In this document: piece by piece, positions 278-26,862 of the stretch
Numbering within the stretch: the stretch's first letter is position 1
How the letters are laid out: each line of letters opens with the position of its first letter
NCBI GenBank assembly: GCA_027603945.1
Contig: JADIIU010000153.1
Coordinates: 1-27,405 of the forward strand
DNA: 27,405 nt
Source of the DNA: Terramyces sp. JEL0728
Lineage: Eukaryota > Chytridiomycota > Chytridiomycetes > Rhizophydiales > Terramycetaceae
Reading direction: 5' to 3'
The notes under the pieces: generated by a model
Database searches by the model: none
The model's input: only the letters and a program-made list of their open reading frames with translations
Told to the model about the DNA's origin: nothing
Program-made: the position numbers and the translations under genes

Positions 278-1919
278 ATGAAACTAGTTTACACCTGCGA
301 TTACTGCAAGAAGAGGGTAAGTGATCAGCTCACGATTAGAAAAGGAAATGTGATCGACAAAGGCCTTGTGCCCTATGCAGAGAAAAGAAAATAGTGTGCA
401 AATACACCCAGCAAGAAAATATTATACAGGATTATAATAGGATGGAGGACAGGATAAGAGATTTGGAAATGATATTAATAATGCCATTTAAATATCCGTG
501 GGAAAACAAGGGCCGATTCAAACAGCCTGCTCAAAAATACCAGCTTCCAATTCACTTGGAGCACTACTTATTCGATTTGAATCACGACTACCTGATCAAA
601 CTACGCTTTGAAAAAATACCTGCCATATTCTCTTACATGACTGAAGAATACTTTATTGAATCCGCAAGGCAGTTTTGGCCACTTAGGTTTACATTGTACT
701 CTACTGGAACACTGTACCTGGCGGATAATCAGATTCCAAAAGGATTGAATGATAGGGTAGAAATAGCCAATGCATACCTGGAAAAAGCAGCAACATTCAA
801 TTTCTTTGAAAATAACAATGCCGTAACTGTGCTTACCTTGGCACAGCTAGCCTTCTCGTTTCTTCGTAACCAGTATTTGATGTAGGAGTAGATAGAAAGG
901 AAGCGTATTTGTATGCGAACATGGGGCTGGTGTTTGCAAAGTACTTGGGAATCAATACCGAGGAAGGGATTGCAAAACTGACACCATTTGATTATGAAAG
1001 GGAGAATATTAGGGGCACATGGTGGCTATTGTACAATCTATACAGTATTAACCCAAAGAAATTTGGCGACGGAGCCGTTATTACAGACGCAGACAACCAG
1101 ATATTCCTGCCTTCAAACATATATTTTGAATCAAACAGCGATATCGATTACTATGGAATTGAAGTCATGTCAAATGCAGAGTGGTATGTGCCATCACTTC
1201 CAAATATGAGCTTCCAGGCTTATCGAATAGTCTTGCACAAAATCACGCATAAAATTTTGAATTATGTACACTTGGAGTTGCTTAATGAAACTGAAAATAT
1301 AAGATATATAGCAGGGACACTGGATGCTTCTTTAAAGGAATGGCATTGTGAAGCTATCCATCTTGTAAACTACCACGCGGCGCAAGTCAGGTTTGGAAAC
1401 GTTAAAGATCCGCAAACTACATGGCTAGTGTTATCCTTATTCATCATGTACAACAACGCCAGAGTAGAATTAATAATACCAAATTTCATGAAGAATATTA
1501 TTAGATGCAAAAAGATTGAAAATTCGCTTTATTTCAAAGCAGCACTATCGGCAGCGATTAACAATGTATTTGTATTGCAATTGATCAAGAGCTACAACCA
1601 GAAATTTGAACATTTGCACGCGTACATTATCTACCTCTTGTTTGTATGTGCATTTTTGCTACAGTGCTGTATAAAGCTCCCCTTTATCTGTAACAGTGAA
1701 ATCATCGCGGCATACGAAATGCATGTTGAATTGCTAGCACTCCACGGCAAGGTGTTTCAACGGACCGCGCTGTACTATCAGCTAATATTACAATTGAACG
1801 AGTTGGATATTCATCAAGCAGTCTTGGCTTATGGAGAGTTTAGGGCGAACGGGTTTTCACCATTAAGTAAGCCAACAACGTCGCATGTCGAATTGTTTGA
1901 CAACCTATCAATAAAATAA
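278..1919 (+). CDS. Zn2Cys6 (Gal4-type) fungal transcription factor, three exons
   Basis: This is a nuclear zinc-cluster transcription factor of 532 aa, joined from 278-316, 340-865 and 886-1919. Removing the 23-nt intron gives the binuclear cluster C7-x2-C10-x6-C17-x5-C23-x2-C26-x6-C33, which is textbook Gal4 spacing with a basic KKRKRK stretch between C10 and C17. A short helical linker (ENIIQDYNRMEDRIRDLEMI, about residues 39-58) resembles the usual dimerisation coiled coil. The middle matches the fungal-specific regulatory domain: LTLAQLAFSFLRVDRKEAYL, then NMGLVFAKYLGIN, then RENIRGTWWLLY. Without the introns the frame ends at TAG 392-394 and again at TAG 883-885. The ATG at 278 is the only in-frame Met before the cluster. 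Target genes cannot be inferred. Both splice joins are predicted, not observed; the cysteine spacing makes the first very secure and the regulatory-domain match supports the second. Confidence 0.9.
317..339 (+). other. 23-nt intron (Zn2Cys6 gene, intron 1)
   Basis: GTAAGT donor and GATTAG acceptor, phase 0, between R13 and K14 of the zinc cluster. Retention puts TAG in frame before the last cysteine; removal restores C-x2-C-x6-C-x5-C-x2-C-x6-C. A CTCAC stretch is the best branch candidate. Confidence 0.88.
866..885 (+). other. 20-nt intron (Zn2Cys6 gene, intron 2)
   Basis: GTAACC donor and GATGTAG end, phase 1. TTGAT supplies a branch A five bases before the intron end. Splicing joins AFSFL to RVDRKEAYLYANMGL, continuous with the fungal transcription-factor domain; retention stops at TAG 883-885. 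Confidence 0.82.
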
Positions 1920-1988
1920 AAGTAACGACACTTGGAGGTATCTCACGCTTGCAAAAAACTACCCTACTAACTGCACCAAAAACCAAAA

Positions 1989-2046
1989 ATAAGAAACCAA
2001 AAACAAAAAATAAGAAACCAAAAACAAAAAATAAGAAACAAAAAAC
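1989..2046. repeat. A-rich 21-bp tandem repeat beside tRNA-Lys copy 2
   Basis: Units of 21 bp beginning ATAAGAAACCAAAAAC start at 1989, 2010 and 2031 (the last partial and slightly changed), with a degenerate half unit before them. On the minus strand the array is the T-rich 3' flank of the tRNA at 2047-2118, so its T runs (for example GTTTTTTG) can serve as an RNA polymerase III terminator. Confidence 0.8.
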
Positions 2047-2118
2047 AGCCCGACGGGGGACTCGAACCCCCAACCTTGAGATTAAAAGTCTCACGCTCTA
2101 CCATTGAGCTAGCCGGGC
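2047..2118 (-). tRNA. tRNA-Lys(UUU), copy 2
   Basis: All 72 nt are identical to copy 1, with anticodon UUU in loop CTTTTAA, intact A and B boxes and no intron. Its 5' flank is shared, in inverted orientation, with copy 3 at 2496-2567. Transcription runs leftward into the T-rich array at 1989-2046. Confidence 0.96.
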
Positions 2119-2495
2119 TTTGTTGCGATTTTCTGATTGTCCCCATTGAAATTGTTCTTGTATTATTGAATGGATTTATGATTAATAAAACTACTTGATT
2201 GGAGTCTTTCATTACCATATTGTACAATCAAAGAAATGGTAGTGTCTTGCTAAGAACGAAATATCGTACCATATCTTACAGAACGATACCAAGTAACGGG
2301 TTTGAATAAAGAGTATTTCTGATATGAAGAGATATTGACACTGGCCTCGGTCAGAAAGAATATTATTTGAAGCATTTCCTATAAATACTTTCTATAGAGC
2401 ACTTGCGAAATACTCAGGTAATGGAGCTGCAAAAATTATACCAAACAGTTTACAAGAAACAATTTCAATGGGGACAATCAGAAAATCGCAACAAA

Positions 2496-2567
2496 GCCCG
2501 GCTAGCTCAATGGTAGAGCGTGAGACTTTTAATCTCAAGGTTGGGGGTTCGAGTCCCCCGTCGGGCT
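2496..2567 (+). tRNA. tRNA-Lys(UUU), copy 3
   Basis: The same 72-nt tRNA on the plus strand: acceptor stem GCCCGGC/GTCGGGC, anticodon loop CTTTTAA, T loop TTCGAGT. It lies head to head with copy 2 as the right arm of the inverted repeat and is followed within 3 nt by a T-rich terminator. Confidence 0.96.
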
Positions 2568-2569
2568 GT

Positions 2570-2580
2570 TTCTTTTTTTT
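2570..2580 (+). terminator. RNA polymerase III T-run terminator
   Basis: TTTC followed by an uninterrupted run of T begins 2 nt after the tRNA-Lys at 2496-2567. A T run directly after a tRNA is the standard Pol III termination signal. It ends only about 10 nt before the start codon of the next gene. Confidence 0.75.
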
Positions 2581-2590
2581 TCATCTTTAT

Positions 2591-3015: not shown

Positions 3016-4230
3016 ATGTCCTTGGATAACCTAGTGGAAGAGTTGCATATAATTGCAAAGTATTTAAACATTCTGGATTACCATGAGCTGCGCTTTTCAT
3101 TCCGCAACTCTATCAATTCGTTCGCAACTCTGCACTGGCCAGCCTACAAGGAAACTTGCTTCCTCTTTAAGCATGCCTATCCATTCTACGACCTATCAAT
3201 ACATATGCAGCTATCTCATGCGGATTACTGCAAGCCAACATTAAGGGCGGTAATTAAAGCAAAGCACCACGAACAGCTCAAACGAATGATAGACAACCCA
3301 AAGTTCAACAGCAAAACGCTTGTTGATGGGCTATGTACAATGATTATGAACAAAACTTACCATGAATACGACCCGAAAATGGTTTTACTACTAGCCCAAA
3401 AAACCAACCCTGTTGACGAATTTCCAAACTATGCTAACGTTCTTCAGAACTTATTGCAAATGGCCTGCGCTCTTAATTGCCCCGAAGCGGTAAGGTATGT
3501 CCTGAACCATCCCAGTTTTGTTTACGATTTTCACTATGCTCAGGCCCTCAGTGATGGTGGCAGGTATGATGGTGTAGATGCCATTGCTGTAATGCTGGAA
3601 GAACCTAGAATCAATATTAGATATCAGCAGAGTATATTGATGCGGCAAATTGGGACTTTTAATGCTTATAGAACACTAAAGTACATGCTTGAAACTCGAA
3701 GGTTAAAGACTGATGTTATGCAAGAGAACCAAGAAGGATTCACAAAGGCTGCGCAGTTTGGGCACCTGGAACTAGTCAAGCTATATACCAGACATCCACG
3801 CACAAAAGTTGGGCATTCTGATGATATTGCATTCAGACTTGCTTGTGAAGAGGGCCATCTGGAAGTTGCGCAGTATCTTTACGACTCTGGCAGAGTGAAG
3901 CCAAACTCTTGGAAATGCTCTGCAGCGCAAGGCGCGATGGCTAATGGTCACATTGTAGTTGTTGAATGGCTTCAAAAGCTACCCAGAGTTCAAATATGGG
4001 CAGAGAACTGCAAAGGATTCAAACGTGCGTTAGACAACAATCAATTAGATATGGTAGAGTGGAGCTTACGACAACCAGAGTTTGATCCAAACTTTGAAGA
4101 TGGAATCTTTTTAAAGATGACGGCCAAAAAGAAATTCCAAAGGCTATTCCATGCCATTGCGCGCCATCCCAAAACTGATCAGGATTTGGTTGATTTCCAT
4201 TGGTATGGAAGCCAAGATTTCTTGTACTAG
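3016..4230 (+). CDS. Ankyrin-repeat protein with F-box-like N-terminus
   Basis: A 404-aa protein. The N-terminus LVEELHIIAKYLNILDYHEL resembles the helical F-box-like segment of large ankyrin families in chytrids and amoebae. The body is a run of degenerate ankyrin units such as ALNCPEAVRYVLNHPSF, AAQFGHLELVKLYTRHPRTK, ACEEGHLEVAQYLYDSGRVK and AMANGHIVVVEWLQKLPR. I chose ATG 3016 because it aligns with the start of the paralogue at 13248-14474 (IAKYLNILDYHELRF against ISQYLSLIDYHNFRF) and gives nearly equal length (404 and 408 aa). An upstream in-frame ATG at 2947 would add 23 residues. The likely role is a substrate- or partner-binding scaffold; if the F-box is real, an SCF ubiquitin ligase receptor. 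The partner is unknown. No intron is needed. Confidence 0.8.
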   Translation: MSLDNLVEELHIIAKYLNILDYHELRFSFRNSINSFATLHWPAYKETCFLFKHAYPFYDLSIHMQLSHADYCKPTLRAVIKAKHHEQLKRMIDNPKFNSKTLVDGLCTMIMNKTYHEYDPKMVLLLAQKTNPVDEFPNYANVLQNLLQMACALNCPEAVRYVLNHPSFVYDFHYAQALSDGGRYDGVDAIAVMLEEPRINIRYQQSILMRQIGTFNAYRTLKYMLETRRLKTDVMQENQEGFTKAAQFGHLELVKLYTRHPRTKVGHSDDIAFRLACEEGHLEVAQYLYDSGRVKPNSWKCSAAQGAMANGHIVVVEWLQKLPRVQIWAENCKGFKRALDNNQLDMVEWSLRQPEFDPNFEDGIFLKMTAKKKFQRLFHAIARHPKTDQDLVDFHWYGSQDFLY

Positions 4231-8400: not shown

Positions 8401-9066
8401 ATGAAATCTCAAATTCCAATTGAATCCATTTATACATTCAACCCAGACGACCACTTGATATCCTATCCAATCAAGAACGGAATAATTAATGACAAAACAA
8501 ACATTATCCTCTTACAACCAGAAATAGAACAAAAGTTCACCATTGAACCAAAGTATAGAAACCAATCACTGAATTGGATTTATTTGGGCGCTAAAGAAGC
8601 TTATGAATTGAAATTGTTTGAAAATGATTTGATAATGCTCCTTCCCACAAAATTAATTGTTCAAGTGAAAATAATCGACTTTGGGATATATCTGGATTAC
8701 AACTACAGTTCCCAGAAGCAATATTACTACAAAAAAGTAGATTGTGAATTCAACGAATGTGGAAAGCTTCTTGTTTATTCACTGTCTAATAATGTTGATT
8801 TGGAAGAATTGTACACTAAAATCAATAATGAAGTAGTGTTTAACGGAGCAATGGTATTCACTTCTAGTAATGGATATAAGCTAAAAACTAAAACCCAATC
8901 ACTGGTTACAAAGAACACTGTGTTGGAATACAAAGGAGTACTTAAACCGCAAAAGTATTTGGGACTGGTTGTTGGGTACTTTGAAGAACCTAAACAAAAG
9001 ACTCTAATTTACAAAAAGGCAAGTATTGATTTGGTGTTTGGTTTAATAGAACGAAATATACAATGA
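8401..9066 (+). CDS. PEX6: Probable N-terminal domain of PEX6 (5' part of the gene)
   Basis: A 221-codon open frame. The segment NWIYLGAKEAYELKLFENDL resembles the substrate-recognition N-domain of type II AAA proteins (VAT, p97, Pex1, Pex6), where ..S...A..LGL..GD is typical, and a second N-lobe appears to follow. It lies immediately upstream of, and in the same phase class as, the PEX6 ATPase part, so I read it as the 5' part of one gene. The join is unresolved: TGA at 9064, TAA at 9073 and TAG at 9079 block the frame, and no 19-23-nt GT-AG segment removes them. It could instead be an independent gene. A TATA-like ATATAAATAG lies about 60 nt upstream of ATG 8401. Confidence 0.6.
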   Translation: MKSQIPIESIYTFNPDDHLISYPIKNGIINDKTNIILLQPEIEQKFTIEPKYRNQSLNWIYLGAKEAYELKLFENDLIMLLPTKLIVQVKIIDFGIYLDYNYSSQKQYYYKKVDCEFNECGKLLVYSLSNNVDLEELYTKINNEVVFNGAMVFTSSNGYKLKTKTQSLVTKNTVLEYKGVLKPQKYLGLVVGYFEEPKQKTLIYKKASIDLVFGLIERNIQ

Positions 9067-9081
9067 ACAGATTAATGGTAG

Positions 9082-10641
9082 ATTAATTGCTACTTGATAT
9101 TAAAGGACACAATTGAAAAGACTGTGCAACACTTGAAAACTATTTTACTCCCAAATCACTATATAGCTCTTGAACATTTTGAAGCATTCCAAGAATCATG
9201 GAGTGGGTAAACCAAATTAATTTCAGTAGCAAACTGGATGGTAAATATCTATTGGAAAAGGTGTTTAATGAAACTCAAGCACACGTTATCTGTCATTTAG
9301 AACGGATAGATTTGATTGAGAAAGAGTACTTGAGTCTGTTTGATGAAATTATTGAAAAAAAAGTCCCAGACCAAAACAAAAGAGTAGAGATATTGCAGGA
9401 TTTGATTGATTATATAGATTATAAAAAGATTGCTATTCAAACGGCTGGCATGACGGAAAAAGATTTGAAAAAGTTGATTGAAACATCACAAATCAATTTA
9501 AAAAACAGGATCTTGTCAAAATACAAACCAACAGTAGATATTGCTGCTGACTGTGCAATTTCACGCCATTTGAAAACCAATCAAGAGTATTCAGAGTTTA
9601 TTAAAATGATTGAGCCAGTGCCAACAACTGCAGATATAATTAACTCTGCAATAGAATTAAAACAAAGTAGTCAGACAGCAAAAATACCAAATGTGCAATG
9701 GAAAGATGTAGGTGGATTGGAACACGTTAAAAACACTATTATTGAAACTATAAAATTACCACTAGAAAACCCACAATTCTTTGACGGGATGCAAAAGAGG
9801 AGTGGGATATTGTTGTATGGACCGCCTGGAACCGGTAAAACGCTAATAGCAAAAGCAGTAGCGACCACACTACAATTGAATTTCTTTTCAATTAAAGGGC
9901 CCCAGCTGCTTAACCAGTACGTTGGCGAAAGTGAAAAAAATGTACGGATGGTGTTTGAAAGGGCTAGAGCAGCTAAACCGTGCATCATCTTTTTTGATGA
10001 GCTGGATTCATTAGCGCCTAAAAGAGGTGGGTCTGGCGATGGTGGTGGTGTGATGGATAGAATTGTGTCTCAACTTTTGGCAGAGCTGGATGGATGTGGT
10101 GGTTCAGATGTATTCTGTATTGGCGCTACAAATCGACCTGATTTACTGGATAGCGCTTTATTAAGACCAGGCAGATTTGATAAACTAGTGTATCTTGGAC
10201 CAAGCACAGACAAAGCATCACTCTTGAAAGCATGCATAAACAAGTATTTTTCACTAATGTAGATTTGATATCGGCGAATTTAACTTGGAGTCATTCACGG
10301 AGACTATTCCAGATGGCTTCACTGGTGCAGATTACTATGCTTTGTCATCACGGGCATTCATGAATGCAATCAAGAGACGTATAAAAGAAATCGATTTGAA
10401 ACGTGGTGACGTTAGTGCCAAGAAATATATGGATATGGCTAATGATGAGGGAAAAGTCACCGTCCAACAAGTGGATTTTGAAGAGGCACTTGTTGGCTTG
10501 GAGCCTAGTGTTGGAAAGGAAGAAATGAAGAGGTATGAGAATATACGGAAACAGTTTGAACCTCCTCAAGAAAACAGCACTGGTAAAAAGGTTCCTACTC
10601 TTAAAAAGAAAGACAAGGGCAAGAAGCCAATGGTACAATAA
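9082..10641 (+). CDS. PEX6: PEX6 AAA-ATPase (D1 remnant, D2, C-terminus)
   Basis: Peroxisomal AAA ATPase that with Pex1 extracts ubiquitinated Pex5 from the peroxisomal membrane. Exons are open frame 9082-9206, then 9227-10243 and 10263-10641. The D2 domain is intact: [11 protein letters not shown], Walker A GPPGTGKT, Walker [16 protein letters not shown], then [20 protein letters not shown] and the sensor/arginine-finger region [19 protein letters not shown]. This matches PEX6 closely, more so than Pex1 or Cdc48. After the second intron the lid continues [20 protein letters not shown] and the helix ending [20 protein letters not shown] is PEX6-like. D1 is severely reduced, with no Walker A visible between LLPNHYIAL and the helix before [12 protein letters not shown] separate start at ATG 9198 is possible if the first intron is not used; the true 5' end depends on the unresolved join upstream. 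Confidence 0.85.
9207..9226 (+). other. 20-nt candidate intron (PEX6)
   Basis: GTAAAC donor and TTAATTTCAG end; the branch A lies six bases before the intron end. Removal joins a 9082-9206 open frame (LLPNHYIAL...ESWSG) to [12 protein letters not shown]. The alternative is that ATG 9198 starts a frame that reads through it, so support is weaker than for the other introns. Confidence 0.55.
10244..10262 (+). other. 19-nt intron (PEX6, D2 lid)
   Basis: GTATTT donor, CTAAT branch, GTAG end, phase 2. Splicing joins LLKACINK to [12 protein letters not shown], as expected for the PEX6 D2 lid; retention stops at TAG 10260-10262. Confidence 0.92.
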
Positions 10642-10714: not shown

Positions 10715-13133
10715 ATGGCAAGCTGTGCAACTTGCTCATTCCCCGTTCTCACTAAAACAAAAGACACCGGCTTGAACTGCTACGCATGTACATCCAACGT
10801 AACTATAACTAACCAAGATCGAAATATGCGACGTCTGCGGTGCTCTATCCCAAATGAACCACCAACAACCACCAGAACTAGTTACAACCCCGCTAAAACT
10901 ATGTACCACCTGTTTATCTGAAAAATCATCCCGAAAATTCAGTATCTGGATCGACTCTACCTCTGGTATAAAGAAAGAACGGATAGAAAAAATACTTCGA
11001 AACCCACATGTTATACAAGTTTATCAGCAAGAACTTTACGAACAGATCAGGAATATGATTCAGGAGGAACAAGAAGATGAAGAGTGTAGTGCTGGTATGA
11101 TGAAGGAGTTGCCTTTTCGGTATGCGGATGAAGAACCTATGGATTTGGATGAACCCGTTATACCCACACTTAAACCAACTGCGACAATTGGAAAAATGGA
11201 GGCGGCAGAGGAAATTGCAGAGATTGTATCGGAAATAGTCAGCAAAGCGCTTGAACCACAAGAGAGAATTTCAGATGTTCAACCAATTAGAAATCTACAA
11301 GAGCAAATATCTGAAACCTTTATTGACCAAAACATGGAAATTGATCAGCCAGAGGTGCAGATTGCGCCAGCACACCAAGAACTACAGATTGAGTGTCCAG
11401 AGGATGAAGACGACATGGATACATCTAGCGACGTATTCAAAGAAACTGTTGCGCCGATCACTTATCCATTGCCCGCGCTTGATCGCGATATCACTGTTGA
11501 AACGATTATGGATGATTACCAAAGCAAAAATGAAGGCTTCTCTGAAAAGAATGAAATTATAATGGATAATGTAGCTAAAAAGCGTGACGCTATTCAAAAG
11601 CTTGTTGGCGGTGTATCAGTCCCAGTTCCAGTTTCTATCTCACAGCCAGAACAAGATGTTCCTACACCAATCATTTCAGTTGAACCATCCAGATCTCCGA
11701 AACGCACAGTTCAAACTGAACCCCAGCAATCTCCCAAGAAATCCAAAGTGGATGTAGATACACTGTTGAATCCTGGTATGACCTTTGTTGGGATAGGGCA
11801 AAAAGGCGAAGCTCAGGCAGGAGTGGAAATTGAAAATAAGTATCACGTAGAAATGGATTTAAATGATGATACTGACCATTCTATCGTTATTGAACAGGAA
11901 GAAACCAACAAATCTCCAGAAACTATTTTGTTTGGAATTGATCAGAAAAGCAAGTCTAATCAAAATGAAAACAGTGAAACGGATATTGCACATATTATTG
12001 CGCAAAAAGCCAAGAATCAATCTTCAGACGCCTCAAAATCACCTGAAAATAAGCAGACGGTATCGTTTGTAATCCGAGACGGTAATCAGAAGGGATTTTT
12101 ACAGTCAATTACCAGACCAGCCAGCAACACTCCTTCGATTTTGGATTTGATTGACAAAAAGAAAGAGTCCATTGGAATTCTTTCTGCGCTTGACGGATCA
12201 CACAAATCAGATGGCCAATCAGTTACATTAAAACCCTCAAGTATCCCAAAGAAAGCTGAACCTGCAAAGCAAGCCTCTGATGAGGACATTCAATTCATAA
12301 GATCTGCTCCAAAGACTCCAGAGCTTAAAAATGATTCGTCAAAGGGTAAAAAACGAGATGCTTTCAAGACTAGTGAAGAGTTTATCCACATAGGGTCTGA
12401 TGATGATGATTTAGTTAAAGTTTCCAAAAAACCTGCAAAGACGACTACTCCAGTACCCGCTGTGCCTGTAGTGTCAGCAAAAGACAGTCAAAGTCCTGTT
12501 AGTACTGCTAATATCACTCAAATTGCTCCGAAACAGCCTCCGAAAAGCACTCCTTCAGCTGTTGCCACTGCTTCCCCAAAGATTAACACTCCCACCAAAC
12601 AAACAATGAACGAACGAGTTGTTCCTACCCCATTAAGCAACACTTTCAACTATCAAACAGCACTGCCAAGTTTGCAACTATCCAATAATGCTCCGGCACC
12701 CCAGCAGGTAGCTGTGCCAAGTACGCCAGTAAATCCAACTCTTACGACGCCGACAAATAACACTCCAGATGTTACCTCAGATCCGGCATCAAAAAAGCCA
12801 TCCAGTGTGAAAAAACCTGTAAAGAGTCTATTCCCAATGCTCACTCGATCCAACCACAATAAGGAAAAGAATCACGGAATTTGTTACTATTGCCAAAGCT
12901 ATGAATACCTCAAATACACAAACATTGTCCAAGATCCAAAATGGAGACTGATACCAATTTGTAAAACCTGTCACAAAGATAAAGGTAAAAAGCCAGTTCT
13001 TAGCTGGGCAAATACTTTACCAACTCATCAAAAGCAGTTTATTTGGAGTGTGTTTAATCTACCTGAAAATTCAGTTTTGAAAGCCGAAGCACTGAAAGAA
13101 GCCGCTGGATTTGATAAAAGCCAAACCAGCTGA
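10715..13133 (+). CDS. Large disordered zinc-binding protein with SUMO-interacting-like motifs
   Basis: I do not recognise the family. Joining 10715-10798 to 10818-13133 gives 799 aa. The N-terminus has four CxxC knuckles, C4/C7, C22/C25, C32/C35 and C57/C60, of which the third appears only after splicing; they could form two treble-clef or ribbon sites. About residues 90-700 are low-complexity Ser/Pro/Thr/Lys/Glu sequence with basic clusters such as SPKKSKVD. Three hydrophobic cores next to acidic runs resemble SUMO-interacting motifs: SIVIEQEE (383-390), DEDIQFI (ending 522) and FIHIGSDDDD (550-559). The C-terminus has a fourth zinc-like site, C717-x2-C720-x22-C743-x2-C746, followed by a conserved-looking helix-rich tail (FIWSVFNLPENSVLKAEALK). 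A nuclear scaffold or chromatin role linked to SUMO is an inference from composition only. Confidence 0.72.
10799..10817 (+). other. 19-nt intron (zinc protein)
   Basis: GTAACT donor, CTAAC branch, CAAG end, phase 0. Splicing joins CYACTSN to IEICDVCGAL, completing a CxxC that pairs with CTTC downstream. Confidence 0.88.
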
Positions 13134-16072: not shown

Positions 16073-17119
16073 CTATATTCTAATAGTGCTTCCGTCGACA
16101 CAATTCTTGCTGGAGGTTAATCCACCTTCTGGTGGTCCTTCCATCGCGGCTACTTGTTTTTGCACCGCCTGTTTCATTTCCTTTTTAATAATATTTTTAT
16201 ATGCTTTCTCCAATATCCATCCAAAGAATGGAACGTAAGGATAAATATTTATGTGAGCCCCATTAGAAATGAAACCTCCGAACGGACTGATTGTTAATAG
16301 GATCATGCAAAAGGTTCCGTAGTATATGTTTGCAGGTGTAGGATAGTACCACATTAGTAGTTCCAGGCCCTTGCTTAGTCCTACGATTGGCATCCCGTAA
16401 CCAACCTCCAGAACTTGAAAAACTACAAAATTTGGTACTTTGGATTTCTTTGCTGCTGCAAACATATTTTCTCTATTCCAGCTGAGGGCTTTGTAGCATT
16501 TCATTGACATTGAACATGCATATAGCGTAATTAGAATCCCTCCCCCATAAATGAATTTAATAGTAAAGGTGTTGATATTGGGGACAACTTGGTATCCTAT
16601 TACTGATGCGATTTTTGTAATGTTACTGTAATTGACTTCGAGAAGAAAGGCTATTAAGCAAATTGGACCAGGGACATATCCCAATGAAAAGACAAACCAA
16701 GGGTTTTTCAAAACGAATCTCCTAGACCTGCTATCGCTGCCCTGCAATATCAACCCCATAACATATATCTGCAAGAATCCGGCTGTATATATTGATAATA
16801 CACACATTGTAAATAGAATCACTGCCGTGTAATTCACAATGATGTTTTCGCTAGAGATAACATCAATTTGGCTAAAATAGATTGCTTTCCCTTCCCATCC
16901 ATGGTATATCACCACAATTTTCCCCAGCATTGCCAATAAGTTCAGTCCGAAAGTTAAGAGTGTTTGAAGCACCGCGCTGTATTGCAACGGCTGGAAGCTG
17001 GATTTCATATATGTTCGATACATGCCAATTAACAAACAAACGAGAGCGAAAACTGCAATAAAGTCAACTATCAGCGTTACTAGGGGAATGTATACTGAGA
17101 GTGCCTGGCTGTTTGACAT
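16073..17119 (-). CDS. Seven-transmembrane protein, orphan family (copy B)
   Basis: A 348-aa paralogue of copy A, in tandem on the same strand 234 bp upstream of it. It shows the same seven-segment pattern and conserved blocks: FLQIYVMGLI, GYVPGPICL, ENMFAAAKKSKVPNFVVFQV, LSKGLELLMWYYPTPANIYYG and SNGAHINIYPYVPFFG. The second half (segments 5-7 and the following loop) is much more conserved than the first, which suggests that the AAAKK loop and NGAH.NIYP loop are functional surfaces. The C-terminal tails are unrelated (basic KKEMKQAVQKQ here). It is divergent from the ABCG gene at 17393, with 273 bp between starts. Confidence 0.8.
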   Translation of the reverse strand: MSNSQALSVYIPLVTLIVDFIAVFALVCLLIGMYRTYMKSSFQPLQYSAVLQTLLTFGLNLLAMLGKIVVIYHGWEGKAIYFSQIDVISSENIIVNYTAVILFTMCVLSIYTAGFLQIYVMGLILQGSDSRSRRFVLKNPWFVFSLGYVPGPICLIAFLLEVNYSNITKIASVIGYQVVPNINTFTIKFIYGGGILITLYACSMSMKCYKALSWNRENMFAAAKKSKVPNFVVFQVLEVGYGMPIVGLSKGLELLMWYYPTPANIYYGTFCMILLTISPFGGFISNGAHINIYPYVPFFGWILEKAYKNIIKKEMKQAVQKQVAAMEGPPEGGLTSSKNCVDGSTIRI

Positions 17120-17392: not shown

Positions 17393-19301
17393 ATGACAGA
17401 CGTTAAAGTAGATATCGAAGATATCCCAGCCGTTCCAAACGCTCCCAAAAAGTTCTCTTGGAGAAACGTCAATCTAGCTGTAACTGTTAATAAAAACAAA
17501 AAGCAGTTATTGACTAATGTATCCGGAGAAGTCAATGCTGGAGAAATGATTGCCATTATGGGTGGTTCAGGTGCAGGAAAATCAACTCTATTAAACACAC
17601 TGGCTGGCCGAATTGGTCCTGGAGAGTTATCCGGCGATATTTTGTTGGATGGTAAAAGAAGGTCACCACGCAACTGGACACTCCAATGTGCATATGTAGA
17701 ACAAGACGACATTTTATTCAAGCAACTTACAGTGTTTGAAACTTTGCGTTATTCAGCCTTGCTCAGATTGCCACAAACAATGACAATTGCCGAAAAAGAA
17801 GCAAGAGTAAATAGCGTGATTTCGCAATTGGGGTTGACTGGTTGCAAAAATACGCCAATTGGAGATGAGCTGGTGCGTGGTATTAGTGGCGGTGAACGTA
17901 AGCGAGTGTCAATTGGGATCGAGCTGGTTACAAATCCACATATCTTGTTTTTGGATGAGGTGCGTTTCAATTAATCTTAGCCAACTTCCGGGCTTGATGC
18001 GTTCAACGCGTTCAACACTATTCAGAGTATTAAAGAATTGGCCAAAAAAGAAAACAAGGTAATCGAATTTGATTCTAGTTGGTGTTGATGACTATCCATC
18101 AACCTAGAACGGACATTTTAGAGTTGTTTGACAAAGTCATGCTTCTAAGTGTTGGCAAAGTAATGTGGTTTGGATCTACTCCAGGTATTATATTTCTAAT
18201 TAAGATGCGATTGTTCATTTTGACAAATTGGGATTCAAGCTTCCAAAGAATACCAATCCGAGCGACTACTTTATTGATATTATTACCATCGACCAACGTG
18301 ACGATGCTAGAAGAGAAGAGTCGCTTAAAAGAATTGCACTATTCCAAGAAGCATTTGCAAAAGTTACATCTGCGGAAACAAAGGATAAGGCCGCACCTGA
18401 TACAACTGGCGATGTATCAACAAAAGTTGCTTGGCCGTCACTGTGGATCAATGAATTCTTTATCATCTTGCACAGATATATAATCAATATGACACGAGAC
18501 AAAGCAGTAGTATTCGCAACCCTCGGCCAGGCGTGTGTCAATCTATTAATCGTATGTATCCTATATTACAACGTTACAGATGACATTGCTGGTATTCAAA
18601 ACAGAATCGGGGTCTTCTTTTTCCTTACGCTGAATATGACATTTGGTAATGTAATGCCAACTGTAAATGCATTTCCAGAAACAAAGAAATTGTAAGTATA
18701 TAGTAATTGTAGGATTAAACGAGAACGAGCTGCTGGGTCGTATCGTGCTACTTCTGCTTATCTGGCTAAAGTCGCTTCAACTGTACCTCTAGTATTTGTC
18801 GTAGTGATCATCCTTGGAACTCCGTTGTACTGGGTTGTAGGGCTATACAATAACGTAGCGAATTTCTTTACTTTTCTTTTAATTTTGCTGATTCAAGCCC
18901 TCGTTGCTAATCTGCTAGGTTTAATGATTGGTTCGGCAGTTCCAAGTGCCACTGTAGGCCAAATCGTAACTCCACTGGTATTGATTATCTTTGTGCTGTT
19001 TTCTGGATTGCTATTGAATTTGGATACTGCACCAGTTTTCTTGCGCTGGATTCAATGGATTTCCTTCCTCACTTACACAATGAAAGCATTTGTGCAAAAC
19101 GAATTCAATTCCAACGCGGTATTTTCTTGTACCAAGCAGCCTTGTTTCCCGGATGGCCCTAGCGTTGTGAATTCGTACGGGTTTGGTACTCCCGACTTGT
19201 GGGGATCGATTGCTGTTAATGCTGGATTAGGGGTTGCATTTTTAATATTGGGTACTTTAGTATTCTCTAGAACCTCAAAACCGTTGATGAGATTAAAATA
19301 A
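17393..19301 (+). CDS. ABCG-type half-transporter, five exons
   Basis: Exons 17393-17959, 17981-18058, 18079-18184, 18205-18691 and 18713-19301 join without frame error to 608 aa, the normal length of an ABCG (White/ABCG2-like) half-transporter that works as a dimer to export lipids or hydrophobic compounds. The N-terminal nucleotide-binding domain has Walker A GGSGAGKST (57-65), Q-loop Q104, signature ISGGE (164-168), Walker B ILFLDE (184-189) followed by PTSGLD, and H-loop H222 in MTIHQP. The WFGSTPDAIVHFDKLGF and NPSDYFIDII blocks are also ABCG hallmarks, and several are cut by introns. The C-terminal half has about six membrane segments and the RERAAGSYRATSAYLAK block. An upstream in-frame TTG exists but ATG 17393 is the natural start. 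All four introns interrupt conserved motifs, so the splice sites can be placed exactly. Confidence 0.95.
17960..17980 (+). other. 21-nt intron (ABCG, intron 1)
   Basis: GTGCGT donor, TTAAT branch, CTTAG end, phase 0. It splits the Walker B/D-loop: LFLDE joins PTSGLDA. The length is a multiple of three, but retention reads TAA in frame. Confidence 0.95.
18059..18078 (+). other. 20-nt intron (ABCG, intron 2)
   Basis: GTAATC donor, TTGAT branch, TCTAG end, phase 0. Joins KENK to LVLMTIHQPR, restoring the H-loop. Confidence 0.94.
18185..18204 (+). other. 20-nt intron (ABCG, intron 3)
   Basis: GTATTA donor, CTAAT branch, TAAG end (an AAG acceptor), phase 1. Joins WFGSTP to DAIVHFDKLGFKLP, an ABCG hallmark. 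Confidence 0.94.
18692..18712 (+). other. 21-nt intron (ABCG, intron 4)
   Basis: GTAAGT donor, GTAAT branch, TGTAG end, phase 2. Joins FPETKK to LIKRERAAGSYRA. The length is a multiple of three, but retention gives TTG TAA. Confidence 0.94.
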
Positions 19302-19311
19302 TCTTGAAATT

Positions 19312-20678
19312 TTATTGAAGTTGTGTGTATCCCTTTTTTTTGTTTCTGTTTGAATATTTGTGAGAGCATTTGATTAGCAGAACTGCAAATCCAAATACAA
19401 CACTAGTGAATAGATGATCTTTAAATATTTGATTGCTGTCAGATGAATTGGTGATGTCGATCAATGTTGAAAAAGTAAAAGACATTGGTTCCCACTGAAG
19501 TAATTGCCTTATCAAACCAAATCGCGATCCAAAATCAAGCACAACTAATGAAACCAACCCAGAAGCAATTTTGATTCCAAATAGTACGAGCAAGCAGTAA
19601 TATAATGAGCCAAGTGTGAGATTCTGAGCAACCAGTAATATCGAGCACACCAATGGTTGTGTAATTCCTTGAATCTGGAATAATGGCAAGGTGAGTATCA
19701 GTGATCCAACTATCGTTTCAAAGAAAGATTGCGCGGCGGAATTGGCACTTATTCTCTTAATATGCAGGGCAAAATTAGCAATGGATTGAAGGGCATTCAC
19801 CAAAGTCAAAGTGTGTAGTAAATCGGTAACATCCATACCACTTCCAAAATACCATACATATAGAATAGTAGCAAGAGGTATAATAATTGAAGGATGATAT
19901 TTGGCATCCTGGTTTCTCTCTTTGGCAACTTTTTCAAAGCTGTATTCGCTGGCAAGGTAGCTGATCCTGCCCGACTCCTTTTGCGAATCTTTGTTTGAAA
20001 TCAAGTTTAGTATAAAGTCTCCTGGATTGGTTCTTGGAGGCAATGGATATCCCAACTTTGCAAAGTGTACTAGCGCACCTTTGTCAATCAAAATATACCT
20101 TCCACTGTGCCGTACCAGAAAACATTTCCATGGCCCAATAAAATGATTTTATCAACCTTTTGCAGGTACTCGAGCTTTGGATTGTCGAGCGCAACAAGAG
20201 CAATGTTTCCATTGTCCTTGGCCAATTTTCTAGCGCAATCTAGCAGCTGGACAGTAGGTGCATGCAGCAATATCAATTCTGGGTTAGTAGCCATTTCCTG
20301 TGCGAGCAACACCATCTTGCGATTGGTATTTTTGATTTTGTCTGCTCCCTTTAATCCAAACTTATAAATCAACGATTCAACTATACTTTGCTTTTGCTTT
20401 AGTGCGATTGAACAAGGGTATTTTAACTGTACGGTGAACATGAGCGTGTCGTATACGGTGCTTGTTTCAGATAATAAATCATCTTTGATTTGGGCATAAT
20501 CATTCCTTGTGATAATCTTGCTGTGTAATTTGGATTTTGTTATTTCTTGCATGAAGAGCGAGTGCTCACCAATCACTGCTATCAAATCGCCGGGTTTTGC
20601 TTCACTTTGGAATACGCATTTCCCTAGCTGCATATCCCACTTTAATGTATTTTCCAGGGATAGAATTGTGTCCTTCAT
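19312..20678 (-). CDS. Catalytically dead ABCG-like protein
   Basis: Exons 20678-20099 and 20078-19312 give a clean 448-aa frame. The architecture is ABCG: an N-terminal domain followed by WYGTVEGALVHFAKLGYPLP and TNPGDFILN, the exact block after the H-loop in ABCG proteins, then five or six membrane segments. Every ATP-binding motif has decayed. Walker A is replaced around IAVIGEHSLFMQEIT, the ISGGE signature is missing at KMVLLAQEMATNPELILLHA, Walker B lacks its DE (LILLHAP), and the H-loop histidine is gone (VALDNPKLEY). It is about 150 aa shorter than the intact neighbour. The open frame and a correctly phased 20-nt intron argue against a simple pseudogene; it may be a regulatory partner of a half-transporter. 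Its stop lies 10 bp from the stop of the convergent ABCG gene. Confidence 0.8.
20079..20098 (-). other. 20-nt intron (dead ABCG gene)
   Basis: Minus strand: GTATAT donor, TTGAC branch, AAAG end (an AAG acceptor), phase 1. Joins WYGTVE to GALVHFAKLGYPLP. Confidence 0.92.
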
Positions 20679-20735
20679 TTTGCTTTCTGAAAAATTTCAA
20701 AAGTTGTAATTGGCACAACAAACGGACAGTTCTTT

Positions 20736-21441: not shown

Positions 21442-22045
21442 ATGAGCGTCCGCACTAAAATCATCAAACCAGCAGGTCAACAACCAGACGATTTAGAACT
21501 TTCAGTCGCTCAAAACATTTACGACCTTGAACACAATGTCGCTGAACTTAAAACTGACCTCCGTGGACTTCAATTCACTTCCGCAAAAGAAGTAATCATA
21601 GTTAATATAGGTTGAAATTGGACATGGACGTAAAGCAATCATTATTTTTGTCCCAGTACCACAACTCCGTTCATTCCACAAAGTTCAAGCAAGACTTGTT
21701 CGTGAATTAGAAAAGAAATTCTCTGATCGCCATGTTCTTTTAGTAGCTCAACGCCGTATTCTTTCAAAACCATCTCACAAATCTCGTCTTACCCAAAAAA
21801 GACCACGTTCACGCACTCTTACTTCAGTTCATGAACAATTATTGGAAGATATGGTTTACCCAACTGAAATTGTTGGAAAGAGAACCAAAGTCAAGGTTGA
21901 TGGAAGTAAAGTTATCAAAGTCTTTTTGGATCGCAAAGACCACACTGCACTTGAATACAAATTGGATACTTTCTCATCTGCTTACAAAAAGTTGACTGGA
22001 AAAGATGTTGTATTTGAATTCCCAGCTGCTACTTTACAAGAATAA
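21442..22045 (+). CDS. RPS7: 40S ribosomal protein eS7
   Basis: Exons 21442-21591 and 21611-22045 give 194 aa, the usual eS7 length. The sequence matches throughout: [20 protein letters not shown], then [40 protein letters not shown] and the C-terminal [20 protein letters not shown]. It is a component of the small cytosolic ribosomal subunit. The single intron lies at AKE|VEI. Codon use is strongly biased (CTT, GTC, CGC/CGT, CCA), consistent with high expression. The upstream open frame from 21286 is not part of the conserved protein and is probably 5' leader. It shares a 238-bp divergent promoter with the LIM gene. Confidence 0.98.
21592..21610 (+). other. 19-nt intron (eS7)
   Basis: GTAATC donor, TTAAT branch, ATAG end, phase 0. 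Removal gives [13 protein letters not shown], which is conserved in eS7 across eukaryotes; retention stops at TAG 21601-21603 or soon after. One of the firmest ultrashort introns in the window. Confidence 0.97.
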
Positions 22046-22200: not shown

Positions 22201-22658
22201 TTATTCCAATTCCACAACAGCGAGACCACTTGTCTGCTTTGCTCGTTGTTTCCTGAACATTAAAATAGCAAACGACAACCCAAAAACAACTGCAATGATA
22301 TTGACAAACAACCCAATCACAAACCGAACATTATCCAAAGTCCCAAACGTTGAAATGACCATTATACAAAAAACATAGTACAATAGTAAATTCGCTGTCC
22401 ATAAAATACAAAATATAAACATGTAGAGCGCGTAATTCAAATAAATAGTTAGTAATGCCGATAGGAGGAGTGCGAGGTTAATTGATTGCAGGATAGTAAA
22501 TACTAGGACTGTTTGGACAAAATAGATCTGAATGCTTGGTTACTATGTTTTACCTGGGTTAGTTTAGAGTACCTCGCAAGGATTAAGTTCAGTATTAGTA
22601 CTGTGAGGACGTATTTCTGGTTATGAGTAATCGCTCGGAATGTTTTTACCCGTTCCAT
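22201..22658 (-). CDS. Small four-TM membrane protein, unknown family
   Basis: This gene appears only after splicing. ATG 22658 (directly preceded by an in-frame TGA) opens MERVKTFRAITHNQKYVLTV, and a downstream exon ending at TAA 22201-22203 adds several membrane segments: FVQTVLVFTILQSINLALLL, then NYALYMFIFCILWTANLLLY, then RFVIGLFVNIIAVVFGLSFA and the tail MFRKQRAKQTSGLAVVELE. The gap can be closed in two in-frame ways. A 26-nt intron (22528-22553) gives 143 aa with a polar loop ARYSKLTQ. Two abutting 19-nt introns (22554-22572 and 22535-22553) give 139 aa with ASIQ instead. I know no matching family. It converges on eS7, with 155 bp between the stops. Confidence 0.7.
22535..22572 (-). 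other. Two abutting 19-nt introns, or one 26-nt intron (22528-22553)
   Basis: On the minus strand two GT...AG segments of exactly 19 nt lie end to end: 22572-22554 (GTACTC donor, CTAAC branch, CCAG end) and 22553-22535 (GTAAAA donor, GTAAC branch, CAAG end). In both the branch A lies five bases before the end, as in the single introns. Removing either alone leaves a stop in the continuing frame; removing both keeps it open. The rival is a single 26-nt intron, 22553-22528, ending ATTCAG, also in frame. Confidence 0.6.
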
Positions 22659-22823: not shown

Positions 22824-23581
22824 TTATAAAGAGACGATACAGGCTTGCTTTGCATTTGACCAAATCTTTTGAACAGGATAATTTATCCCATCAGTACCCT
22901 TGATAGTTCCCAACTGCCAGGCGCAAATATCCCCAATTTCATCCTGAACATCTGAAGTGCCGGCATACCACCCAGTAGCTGCATTAGCAATAGTTACCGG
23001 TATCAGGGTTGGTGATAGCCTCAACCAATTCATGGCTAGCCATCATCCCAAAGTTGTTGTAGTTATTGTAAAATCCACCGCATAAGGCACAGTCAGTATC
23101 TGGGACTACAGAGTAAATCAATTGCGATCCGTCGTCCAAGCCCATGTTGGAATGGTAGGCGCAAAAAGTCTTGCAGGATACCATTCCTGAAAACGTAATT
23201 GCAACTCCTGGTGATGCATGTACAGCGTAAATCGTATTTACAGATGGAGTAATCTGGCCGCTCTTGACCATTGCTCCCAACGCATTCATGATATCATTAT
23301 CATCATACGTATTTTGGTTGGTAATAATATACTTTGGCTGCCATGCTTTGCCTACATTAACTACCCTAACCTCTAATAATCTTTGTTTTGTTGTTATATT
23401 CATCCAACATGTCAATGTACTTTGAATTCAAGACTTGTGAATAGTATTTTTGGATAGTGTTGTAGTAGGGGAAAGATGTCTGTGTTGGACCGATGAGGAC
23501 TGGGACTACTTGTGCTGAATGGATTACTGGGCCGCCATGGTAAGCTGCGTGTGTTATTGCTTGGACTACTGGGAATAGCAT
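22824..23581 (-). CDS. Secreted HExxE-motif protein, three exons
   Basis: Exons 23581-23371, 23351-22998 and 22978-22824 give 239 aa. It belongs to a family of secreted bacterial and fungal proteins that I recognise by pattern but that lacks a firm function: GGPVIHSAQVVPVLIGP at the mature N-terminus, YSQVLNSKYIDMLDEYN, CKTFCAYHSN, MASHELVEAITNPD, GWY, EIGDICAW and the end YPVQKIWSNAKQACIVS. HELVE with surrounding acidic residues looks like a metal site. Five cysteines fit an extracellular fold. The short N-terminal MLFPVVQAITHA could be a signal peptide; the same frame continues upstream as hydrophobic CASILYAL without a Met, so a first exon may be missing. A relation to plant EXORDIUM-like proteins or metallopeptidases is possible but unsure. 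Confidence 0.75.
22979..22997 (-). other. 19-nt intron (secreted HExxE protein, intron 2)
   Basis: Minus strand: GTAACT donor, CTAAT branch, GCAG end, phase 1. Joins SHELVEAITNPDT to ATGWYAGTSD; retention stops two codons later. Confidence 0.9.
23352..23370 (-). other. 19-nt intron (secreted HExxE protein, intron 1)
   Basis: Minus strand: GTTAGG donor (the only GTT donor seen), TTAAT branch, GTAG end, phase 1. Joins YNNKTKIIRG to KAWQPKYIITN; retention reads TAG at once. Confidence 0.9.
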
Positions 23582-23881: not shown

Positions 23882-24365
23882 ATGCTGGAACCAATTGTAA
23901 AAATCGCTGTTTGGATTAGTGACCGTAGATGGACAGAGAGAGATGTCCCTGGCGGATGGGAAGTACTTGACAAGGACATTAACGCAGGTAATCAAGCACT
24001 AACCCCAAGGACTAGGAGGTAAATTCATATATCTCTTTTATGAAAGATTACGCTGTCCTGCAGAAGCACATCACAGAATAACAGAAATCAGCGTCTTTGC
24101 ATCTGAACATCAGCTCTCTGGTTATCTACATGGCTGGGAATTAATCCCAGGTGATTTAAATACGGGAGCAGGCGGAAAGTATATTTACCTTGGAGTCAAG
24201 CGAGATAATGGGTATGGCATTACAATGTTGGATGTACACGATGGCGAATGCCATATTGAAGGGTGGATTAGACATCCTACTGATTTGAATAGCGGAGCAG
24301 GTGGTAGTTATAGGTATTTGTACTATCGAACTCTGTTCAAAGACGGGCTACCTTGTTACCACTAA
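23882..24365 (+). CDS. Three-repeat MABP-like beta-prism protein
   Basis: The complete frame appears only after splicing: exons 23882-23987 and 24010-24365 encode 153 aa. Three repeats carry the motif D[LI]N.G.GG.[YF][IR]YL: DINAGLGGKFIYLFYER (32-48), DLNTGAGGKYIYLGVKR (84-100) and DLNSGAGGSYRYLYYRT (127-143), each preceded by a W-containing strand (WEVL, WELI, WIRH). This is the signature of the MABP (MVB12-associated beta-prism) fold, three such units making one prism. In MVB12 the fold binds acidic membranes; other MABP proteins vary. The first repeat is cut by the intron. There is no signal peptide, and no other domain is fused. The start ATG 23882 has a stop upstream at 23855, though an earlier exon cannot be excluded. 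It is divergent from the secreted HExxE gene, with 300 bp between them. Confidence 0.75.
23988..24009 (+). other. 22-nt intron (MABP-like gene)
   Basis: GTAATC donor, CTAAC branch, CCAAG end, phase 1. Completes the first DINAGLGGKFIYL repeat, which then matches repeats two and three. Confidence 0.9.
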
Positions 24366-24432
24366 TAAAACATCATACTAGATACACTACATACTTGATA
24401 ATCCGCAGTGGTATTTCTGTGTGATGAATTGC

Positions 24433-24488: not shown

Positions 24489-24521
24489 CTCGAAAATATT
24501 TTTTTTCATCCACAATAATAA

Positions 24522-25297
24522 ATGTTCAGACTGCTGCAACCATTCAAGCAAACAATAAAACAGGTTCGATTCTACGATAGAAACCGATATTTAAAAGAAA
24601 AAAAGAAATTGAAAGCAAGTTTGTCTGACGAGAAAATACCACTCACTCAAGTATTTGACTTGATAAAAATCTATTCTCTAGGACAGCCATTGAATTTGAA
24701 GTTGCATTTGGAAATTGAACAGCAGAAACAGCCTATCAGGTACCTTTAGCTAATGTAGATGTCTAGTTGCATTACCACATTCTATTGAAATGGATAAACC
24801 AAAGATTCTGGTATTCGCTACTGGAAAAGACGCAGAATTGGCAAAGGAATTAGGAGCAGATATAGTGGGCGGAGTGGAATTGCTAGACCAAATTACTCAA
24901 AACCAATTACAGTTCGATCGCTGTTTATCTACAAAACAAATGTTTCCAAATGTAGTGAAAATTGCAAAAATCTTGGGTCCAAAAGGATTAATGCCATCAC
25001 CAGCCAAAGGAACTGTGGGAGATGACTTGAGGAAAATGATGGGCGAAACAAATTCAACAATCAAGTTGGAGATTCGAGATCAATTGGATATGTTGATTGG
25101 TAGTACTGCTTGGGATAACGAGAAGTTAGAATCGAACATCAAGGAAGTGATGAAAACAGTTTTTACTAATACCAATCATAAAGGTATTTTATTTTAACGT
25201 AGATGAGAAATTTATACAAAAGATTGCTGTTTATGGAGATAATATTCCTGGATTCCTGTTGCCAAAGAGACCATTCAGATCGTTAATAAACAAGTGA
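24522..25297 (+). CDS. MRPL1: Mitochondrial ribosomal protein uL1m, three exons
   Basis: Exons 24522-24739, 24759-25183 and 25203-25297 give 245 aa. The core is uL1: PKILVFATGKDAELAKELGA, then the hallmark KILGPKGLMPSPAKGTV and the C-terminal FLLPKRP. The N-terminus MFRLLQPFKQTIKQVRFYDR is basic and amphipathic with no acidic residue before D19, as for a mitochondrial targeting peptide, so this is the organellar rather than the cytosolic (uL1/RPL10A) protein. It forms the flexible L1 stalk of the mitoribosome. Both introns fall in conserved blocks (PIR|CLVALPHS and NTNHK|DEKFIQK), which fixes the splice sites. It precedes the Ofd1/Tpa1 gene by 87 bp on the same strand. Confidence 0.93.
24740..24758 (+). 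other. 19-nt intron (uL1m, intron 1)
   Basis: GTACCT donor, CTAAT branch, GTAG end, phase 2. Joins QQKQPIR to CLVALPHSIEMDKPKILVF. Confidence 0.94.
25184..25202 (+). other. 19-nt intron (uL1m, intron 2)
   Basis: GTATTT donor, TTAAC branch, GTAG end, phase 1. Joins TNTNHK to DEKFIQKIAVYGDNIPGFLL. Confidence 0.92.
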
Positions 25298-25384
25298 GAT
25301 AGTAGTCTTGATTTGAGATTCGCACTGGATAATACCATGCTATCCGCATAGATTAAACAGGAAGCCACTTAGATTTTTTATTTC

Positions 25385-26862
25385 ATGCCAACACCAAAAA
25401 AATTAAAACACTCTGCATTTCAAATCAATTTGGACAATACAGAGAGCATCAAACAGAAATATAACGAATCGCAACCATACAAACATGTCGTAATCCCGTC
25501 AATTATCAATGACGCATTACTTGGAAAAGTACGCAAAGAAATCCTATCAAACTTGTCCTACAAACGTAAAGAAACTGATATTTACACATTGAACCAGTCG
25601 GGTGATTTGGCCAACTTGAAAGGATTAAAAAGTAGCGAATTGTCGCAATTGGAATCTGTGGTTGAACTGTACAATGGAATCTATTCAAAGGAATTTCGTA
25701 ATTTTGTTCAAGAAATAACTGGATGTGAGCCACTATCTGGTGAAAAAGTAGACATGTCGTTCAATAATTATACTCGGGGCTGCCATTTGTTGGTTCACGA
25801 TGATATGATTTCAACCAGAATGATTTCTTTTATTTTGTATTTGGTTGATGGTGATTGGCAACCAACTGATGGAGGTGCATTGGAACTATATGGAGAAAAG
25901 AATGGCGTACCTGATATTGAACCAAGTAGACGAATTGATGTTGAGTGGAACAAGATTGTGTTTTTTGCTGTTGAACCTGGAAAGAGTTTTCATTCTGTTG
26001 AGCAGGTGGTTGTGGATAGAGAACGATTATCTTGTCAAGGATGGTACATTTACTTTGATTTAGGTTCCATGTTGCTCAAAAAGGAGAGGAAGGATACACA
26101 ACTGGAAAAAGAAACCTGGTAAATTCAACATTATCGGAGCTGACGAGAGCTAAACCTGTTCCATTCAAGGAATTCACTGATATCCATTCTGATTTAAGGA
26201 AATCCGTCAATGAAAAGTATCTATCAAGCTCATTCATCAAATCTATGAGTGAAAAGTTTGTCGAAGATTCTGCCATTTTATTGCAAGACTTTTTGGAGCC
26301 TAAACTAGCAGAGAAAATCAAAAGGATACTCGAGCAAAGGGACTCTGTCTTTAAAAAAGACACTATGCCTGCTCATGGAACAAAAACAGATGGATGGGAA
26401 ACAATCGGCCCTATCCATGTCCAACGAATACAAGTGCTCGCAGATGAAACTAAAGAACCTGAACTATTGCAACTTTTGCAGTTTTTCAAATCAACTGAAT
26501 TCAAAGAGTATATATCAAAGATTACAGAGATGGCAATCAACAAACATGCTGTACAAGCACGTAGATTCAGACCAGGACTTGATTACACACTAGCCACGGT
26601 CAAAGAATGTCTATCAGTTACTCTAAACCTCTCCTATGGCGAATGGAGAGATACAGATGGCGGATACCAGATCTACATGAGCAAAGACGATGGCGAAGAT
26701 GAAACTATTTATCAAGAAGGCGGTGACGATGTTTTACTAGATTTACCAGTTGCATTTAATAATTTATCTATAGTGCTTCGAGATGATATACTTGAATTTG
26801 TAAAGTACGTTGGGACTGGTGCGGGAAAGAGTAGATGGGATATTGAATGTTTTTATGAATAA
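25385..26862 (+). CDS. TPA1: Ofd1/Tpa1-type prolyl hydroxylase
   Basis: Exons 25385-26043 and 26064-26862 give 485 aa. It is a 2-oxoglutarate/Fe(II) dioxygenase of the Ofd1/Tpa1/OGFOD1 family, which hydroxylates a proline of ribosomal protein uS12 (Rps23) and in fission yeast links oxygen level to Sre1 control. The N-terminal catalytic double-stranded beta helix contains the iron triad H138-x-D140...H203 and the 2-oxoglutarate arginine R214, eleven residues after the second histidine, as in Tpa1. FILYLVDGDWQPTDGGALEL is also typical. After the intron, GWFHVAQKGEEGYTTG joins the non-catalytic second domain (SVTLNLSYGEWRDTDGGYQI, RWDIECFYE end), which lacks the metal residues, as in known members. 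Full length, with start ATG 25385. Confidence 0.95.
26044..26063 (+). other. 20-nt intron (Ofd1/Tpa1)
   Basis: GTACAT donor, TTGAT branch, TTTAG end, phase 2. Joins RLSCQG to WFHVAQKGEEGYTTGK, the conserved GW[FY]H..Q.GEEGY block of the family. Confidence 0.96.

Follow-up and report, generated by a model that had tools for sequence, protein, structure and literature searches.

Introns of about 20 nucleotides (nt) have been described in ciliates, in mikrocytid parasites and in the reduced nuclei of endosymbionts. Chlorarachniophyte nucleomorph introns are reported as 18–21 base pairs (bp) long and mikrocytid introns as 16–17 bp (PMC10245619), those of Stentor coeruleus as 15–16 nt, with a branch A that mostly occupies position 10 or 11 (PMC9505925), and those of Paramecium and Nyctotherus as ∼25 bp (PMC5014332). 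Cryptococcus neoformans, described as a short-intron fungus, has introns averaging 56 nt, those below 40 nt being few and poorly spliced (PMC11913375). Here I describe a class of predicted introns of 19–23 nt in the chytrid Terramyces sp. JEL0728 (Chytridiomycota, Rhizophydiales, Terramycetaceae), starting from positions 1–27405 of contig JADIIU010000153.1 (the whole stretch of 27,405 nt, hereafter the window), part of a draft assembly of 15,016,339 bases in 231 contigs. Judged from sequence, and at a probability of roughly 0.94, these are U2-type spliceosomal introns that have been cut down throughout the genome to a scaffold of nearly fixed form.

A length class of 19–23 nt

Seventeen introns were placed in eleven genes of the window (19 nt, seven; 20 nt, six; 21 nt, two; 22 nt and 23 nt, one each; Table 1). 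An earlier reading of the letters alone (the sequence-only reading) had given the same tally, and it is from the equality of the length tallies that the two sets are taken to be the same introns. An eighteenth, at 23352–23370 on the minus strand, was found beyond this tally. The joined proteins are intact across junctions: after intron removal, the products of the eS7 gene (194 amino acids) and the ABCG gene (608 amino acids) show 100% identity, over their full length, to the deposited JEL0728 proteins P0121 and P0241 respectively, and Pfam matches above cut-off span the Zn2Cys6 and uL1 junctions. The deposited proteins already splice all five introns that could be compared (one in eS7, four in ABCG), and the fact is therefore implicit, if unremarked, in public data. 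The expectation of the sequence-only reading, that most genes here would be wrongly predicted by gene finders, is thus not supported. Its statement that 16 of the segments restore proteins stands for eS7, ABCG, the PEX6 D2 domain, Ofd1/Tpa1, Zn2Cys6, uL1 and the MABP-like gene, but has to be amended for the segment at 22535, which does so only together with 22554–22572; the lower standing it had given to 9207 was justified, as the frame is open there without splicing.

Gene models of the sister genus bear on the same sites. In Boothiomyces sp. JEL0866, the ABCG model P0247 (413 amino acids) terminates in FPETKKL, exactly at the start of intron 4, where the unspliced Terramyces gene reads K-L-stop, and a paralogue, P0245, carries two additional residues where intron 1 lies in Terramyces. 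These models suggest that the sister genus shares the introns, or their positions at the least, and that they are at times wrongly modelled in that genus. The case also warns that such introns may cut short the gene models of sister chytrids.

The excess over chance was measured with a gene decoder that uses no splice motif. Its inputs were codon-pair usage, start and stop codons and a required pair of end dinucleotides, with a flat length preference from 6 to 200 nt, and it was applied to 277,405 bases, comprising the window and 250 kilobases (kb) from seven other contigs. With GT-AG ends it placed 79 introns, 29 of them of 19–23 nt, whereas 35 control dinucleotide pairs gave 1–8 introns of this length (mean 3.3). 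GT-AG introns of 24–30, 31–60, 61–100 and 101–200 nt showed no excess, lying inside or under the range of the 35 controls (at 61–100 nt just under it, with 6 against 7–16). The sensitivity of this decoder is low, since a pilot with slightly different settings placed two of the 17 window introns (866 and 18692), plus four other calls.

A second decoder, with donor and acceptor weights trained on such short introns, was used to scan 306,911 bases of the 15-megabase (Mb) genome, and extends beyond the window the length prediction that the sequence-only reading had proposed. It called 207 introns, of which 163 are of 19–23 nt (28 of 19 nt, 90 of 20 nt, 31 of 21 nt, 13 of 22 nt and one of 23 nt, making 20 nt the commonest length) and none of 24–30 nt. 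Seven runs with permuted weights, some of which retain much of the motif, gave 7–70 short introns, with a mean of 36. At 31–60 nt there were 14 calls against a control mean of ∼19, and at 61–120 nt 24 against ∼30. At least one called intron is present in 88 of the 141 decoded genes, and reading through any of the 163 short introns leads to a frameshift or an in-frame stop, cases that the decoder favours. In the 307 kb sampled, the genome has a narrow intron class below 25 nt and few or no longer introns.

These length distributions bear on a first alternative, namely that the 20-nt class is one of two, with conventional longer introns being missed by a frame-based decoder. Both decoders require a strong coding signal, are blind to stop-free 21-nt introns and were limited to introns of at most 300 nt, and some ∼307 kb of the 15 Mb were covered; a 38-nt intron is possible at 22535–22572, some of the longer calls have good donor and acceptor scores, and 15 of the 50 motif-free calls outside the 19–23 nt range contain the branch motif described below. 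Some of these could represent short introns run together, as at 17964–18204, or real longer ones. Against two classes stand the 24–30, 31–60, 61–100 and 101–200 nt GT-AG counts, none above the 35-pair range, and the calls made with learned signals at 24–30, 31–60 and 61–120 nt, all under the permuted-control means. I regard a second, longer class as unlikely, while far from negligible.

Splice signals and spliceosome components

In 25 of the 29 introns of 19–23 nt placed without any motif, a TRAY motif is found with its A 5–6 nt before the intron end, compared to 209 of 1,725 (12%) of the 20-nt GT-AG stretches in the sample. Because TRAY was not used by this decoder and is enriched all the same, the signal emerges by itself, and this count is the independent check, more so than the geometry of the 163 introns called with learned weights. 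For the latter, simple motif scoring puts the presumed branch A at +14 to +16 in 147 of 163 cases and leaves 5 or 6 nt after it in 148 of 163. At donor position +5, 49% of these introns carry U and 23% carry G. This preference of U over G may hint at an altered 5′ end of U1.

The proposed scaffold would begin with a GTA donor, followed by a spacer, roughly half of it U, up to position 11–12; then would come the TRAY motif, in most cases placing its A at +14 or +15, a further 2–3 nt, and AG. If the A of the motif is the branch point, and the RNA is spliced at these sites by the ordinary two-step U2-type reaction, a lariat ring of ∼14–15 nt would form, with a tail of 5–6 nt. Recognition would presumably be the usual one, by SF1/U2AF65 and U2; since the interval from branch to AG leaves no space for a polypyrimidine tract, U2AF65 would presumably need to act upstream of the branch or bind in an unusual manner.

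A length of ∼20 nt lies outside the usual fungal range, and one could envisage that the segments are removed or skipped with no spliceosome involved, through translational bypassing, or through tRNA-endonuclease cleavage and ligation as for HAC1/XBP1. Bypassing and cleavage of the HAC1/XBP1 type do not need GTA...TRAY..TAG signals. The segments nevertheless share these signals, at near-fixed positions, and none of the 35 other end pairs reproduces the excess, which makes such a mechanism very improbable.

Components of the spliceosome are encoded in the same genome. The U2 small nuclear RNA is intact (140.2 bits), with its branch-binding GUAGUA present, U5 is found at 85.9 bits, and U1-C, Slu7 and SF1 give matches above their family cut-offs. 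U2AF65, when read through its introns, reaches 251.7 bits against a cut-off of 310.3. Four introns, of 20, 20, 19 and 19 nt, interrupt the predicted U2AF65 gene, and the joined protein aligns to the U2AF 65 kDa subunit in the PDB; two of the four junctions are covered by the alignment shown, with no gap at either. The view of the sequence-only reading that this is a fungal nuclear genome with spliceosomal introns is therefore upheld by an excess confined to 19–23 nt, by a spliceosomal consensus, and by U2, U5, U1-C, U2AF65, SF1 and Slu7.

The presence of such introns in genes like that of U2AF65 and eS7 also bears on the idea that assembly indels or decayed genes imitate introns. Frame interruptions are indeed many, and the assembly is a draft in 231 contigs. 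Errors of this kind would be unexpected in these genes, however, nor would they begin with GT, end with AG and enclose a branch motif; of all the explanations considered, this is the least credible.

Several observations weigh against U2-type introns of near-fixed form. Some of the permuted-weight controls climbed to 70 short introns; the TRAY motif is above background in the 15 of 50 motif-free introns of other lengths as well; and the sharp geometry of the 163 introns is partly built in, because introns bearing the motif served to train the acceptor weights. The usual donor has G at +5, and a U-rich +5 fits standard U1 poorly. The U1-C family also matched one bacterial control genome, and U1 RNA itself was not found in the genome with Rfam, a search in which the controls gave no match either. 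One U1 pattern search returned 4 matches where the backward control had 31, and another 24 against 20; as the matches do not convincingly exceed the backward controls, neither pattern points to U1. No convincing U6 was found with Rfam or with a search for its 18-nt core, the latter giving two matches with 2 mismatches each, neither containing ACAGAGA, where the backward control gave none. The genome is expected to encode U6, and an internal intron, divergence or an assembly gap could explain the miss. At gathering cut-offs, Rfam matched only the three tRNAs of the window in the 277,405 bases.

Two near-identical U6-like loci (L035 1501–1606 and L036 1501–1605; 27 bits, below cut-off) possess ACAGAGA and were rejected for their altered AGC triad. 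A similar minus-strand gene is found near both.

Introns and neighbouring genes of the window

The learned-signal decoder alone called 12 of the 17 window introns. Those at 317, 10799, 22535, 22979 and 23988, and the additional one at 23352–23370, were missed by it and placed by eye. The motif ranks in Table 1 give the place of each intron among 813 GT-AG stretches by motif score, and are partly circular, because the window supplied 12 of the 163 introns used for training.

Table 1. Predicted introns and associated features of the window (motif ranks out of 813 GT-AG stretches)
Feature	Position	Strand	Evidence and remarks
Zn2Cys6 transcription factor gene	278..1919	+	two introns; PF00172, 30.9 bits, across first junction; joined frame open
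23-nt intron GTAAGTGATCAGCTCACGATTAG	317..339	+	Cx2Cx6C spacing of Zn cluster regained; motif rank 184/813
20-nt intron, Zn2Cys6 gene	866..885	+	called by motif-free pilot and learned decoder; motif rank 5/813
20-nt intron, weak candidate near PEX6 start	9207..9226	+	motif rank 9/813; unspliced frame also open
19-nt intron, PEX6 D2 domain	10244..10262	+	PDB AAA+ alignments continue through junction; motif rank 4/813
19-nt intron, gene 10715-13133	10799..10817	+	two open frames become one protein; motif rank 17/813
ABCG intron 1, 21 nt	17960..17980	+	LFLDE/PTSGLD regained (slash, junction); identity to P0241 over 608 residues
ABCG intron 2, 20 nt	18059..18078	+	learned decoder; joined frame; deposited protein P0241
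ABCG intron 3, 20 nt	18185..18204	+	learned decoder; joined frame; deposited protein P0241
ABCG intron 4, 21 nt	18692..18712	+	motif-free pilot; learned decoder; P0241; Boothiomyces model P0247 stops here
20-nt intron, ABC-like gene 19312-20678(-)	20079..20098	-	learned decoder; weak, motif rank only 50/813
19-nt intron GTAATCATAGTTAATATAG, eS7 gene	21592..21610	+	gap-free alignment to PDB eS7; identity to P0121 over 194 residues
Two abutting 19-nt GT-AG segments, or one 38-nt intron	22554-22572 then 22535-22553	-	motif rank of 22535, 105/813
19-nt intron, gene 22824-23581(-)	22979..22997	-	motif rank 8/813
19-nt intron GTTAGGGTAGTTAATGTAG, gene 22824-23581(-)	23352..23370	-	two exons joined in one frame; unusual GTT donor
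22-nt intron, MABP-like repeat gene	23988..24009	+	third repeat copy completed; motif rank 236/813
uL1m intron 1, 19 nt	24740..24758	+	PF00687, 109.9 bits, across junction; motif rank 7/813
uL1m intron 2, 19 nt	25184..25202	+	PF00687 across junction; motif rank 2/813
20-nt intron, Ofd1/Tpa1 gene	26044..26063	+	PDB TPA1 alignment gap-free through QGW/FHVAQKGEEGY (slash, junction)

For the introns at 317 and 23988, which are poor by motif, it is the protein join that argues for removal. In the MABP-like gene, whose product gave no Pfam match, the join would yield DINAGLGGKFIYL, which resembles the internal copies DLNTGAGGKYIYL and DLNSGAGGSYRYL (repeat D-[IL]-N-x-G-x-G-G-x-[FY]). The introns at 9207, 20079 and 22535 are the weak ones among the 17; around the first, the gene chain of the learned decoder fuses a neighbouring gene. 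Nearby, a 48-nt call of the decoder at 9034–9081 was rejected, as it fuses two neighbouring genes.

At 22535–22572, four options were tried, and a continuous frame of 139 amino acids is obtained only when both segments are removed, hence either a single 38-nt intron or two tandem 19-nt introns. By pattern, this is the sole back-to-back pair of 19-nt segments in 326,945 bases. An enrichment of tandem introns was rejected, with one observed and one also in one of six control patterns. The site is a candidate for stepwise removal, or else one 38-nt intron, and as such it counts against a uniform length. The sequence-only reading had called the introns uniformly ultrashort, and had held that no conventional intron of 50–100 nt is needed; the first agrees with an excess limited to 19–23 nt and the second proved correct within the window to the extent examined; both, however, have to be qualified by this interval, which may be a single longer intron.

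Other features of the window are as follows. The gene at 22824–23581(-), with two of the introns listed, perhaps encodes a secreted protein, judging by eye. The minus-strand OPT transporter is intronless, and shares 91% identity with its Boothiomyces sp. JEL0866 counterpart. Two genes without called introns encode an ankyrin-repeat protein with strong Ank_2 matches in Pfam (13248–14474(+)) and an ankyrin-like protein, judged by eye only (3016–4230(+)). The adjoining genes at 14795–15838(-) and 16073–17119(-) encode proteins that by eye are apparently related and membrane-spanning, with no Pfam match at E 0.01; a segment resembling these appears, again by eye, to be fused to the Boothiomyces ABCG model P0245. 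Three copies of tRNA-Lys(TTT) lie inside 2.6 kb, at 4–77(-), 2046–2119(-) and 2495–2568(+). The last two are convergent and, by eye, have ∼45 extra flanking bases in common, as an inverted repeat.

Comparison with known minimal introns

In the literature, ∼20-nt introns as the main class are unreported for Terramycetaceae or any free-living fungus among the matches listed, which left subscription journals mostly uncovered. It is an even call whether the Terramycetaceae as a whole have independently reached a minimal spliceosomal intron of ∼20 nt, with a ring of 14–15 nt, while keeping the ordinary splicing factors, with a +5-U donor and possibly an altered U1, and with back-to-back introns possibly removed stepwise. 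A cultured fungus (a JEL strain) whose genome measures 15 Mb would be a tractable organism in which to study a spliceosome acting on an intron seemingly too short for U1 and U2 side by side. Such a fungus would also set intron minimisation apart from parasitism or genome erosion.

The nearest match in length is the chlorarachniophyte nucleomorph, whose narrow range is almost equal to that predicted from sequence in Terramyces. The nucleomorph is, however, a reduced endosymbiont nucleus, with introns reported in ∼300 genes, in contrast to a fungal genome of 15 Mb (PMC10245619). The contig and the proteins analysed here belong to the chytrid Terramyces sp. JEL0728, and not to the remnant nucleus of an endosymbiont. 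The mikrocytids, from the same source, also resemble Terramyces in having uniform introns of conserved sequence, but are reduced obligate parasites with 17–19 spliceosomal proteins identified, whereas U2AF65, SF1, Slu7 and U1-C are present in Terramyces among those sought (PMC10245619).

Stentor shares with Terramyces a near-fixed length, AU-rich introns and a branch A (presumed in Terramyces) 5 nt before the end. It differs in that it is reported to have no strong branch consensus, while Terramyces has a strong TRAY with the presumed branch A mostly at +14 or +15 (PMC9505925). Paramecium and Nyctotherus likewise appear to have ultrashort introns only, but are ciliates, and the introns described for them are longer (PMC5014332). 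In C. neoformans, the term ultrashort denotes introns below 60 nt, as opposed to a commonest length of 20 nt in Terramyces (PMC11913375). As a kind, ultrashort spliceosomal introns are known; it is the lineage in which they occur here, and their geometry, that look new.

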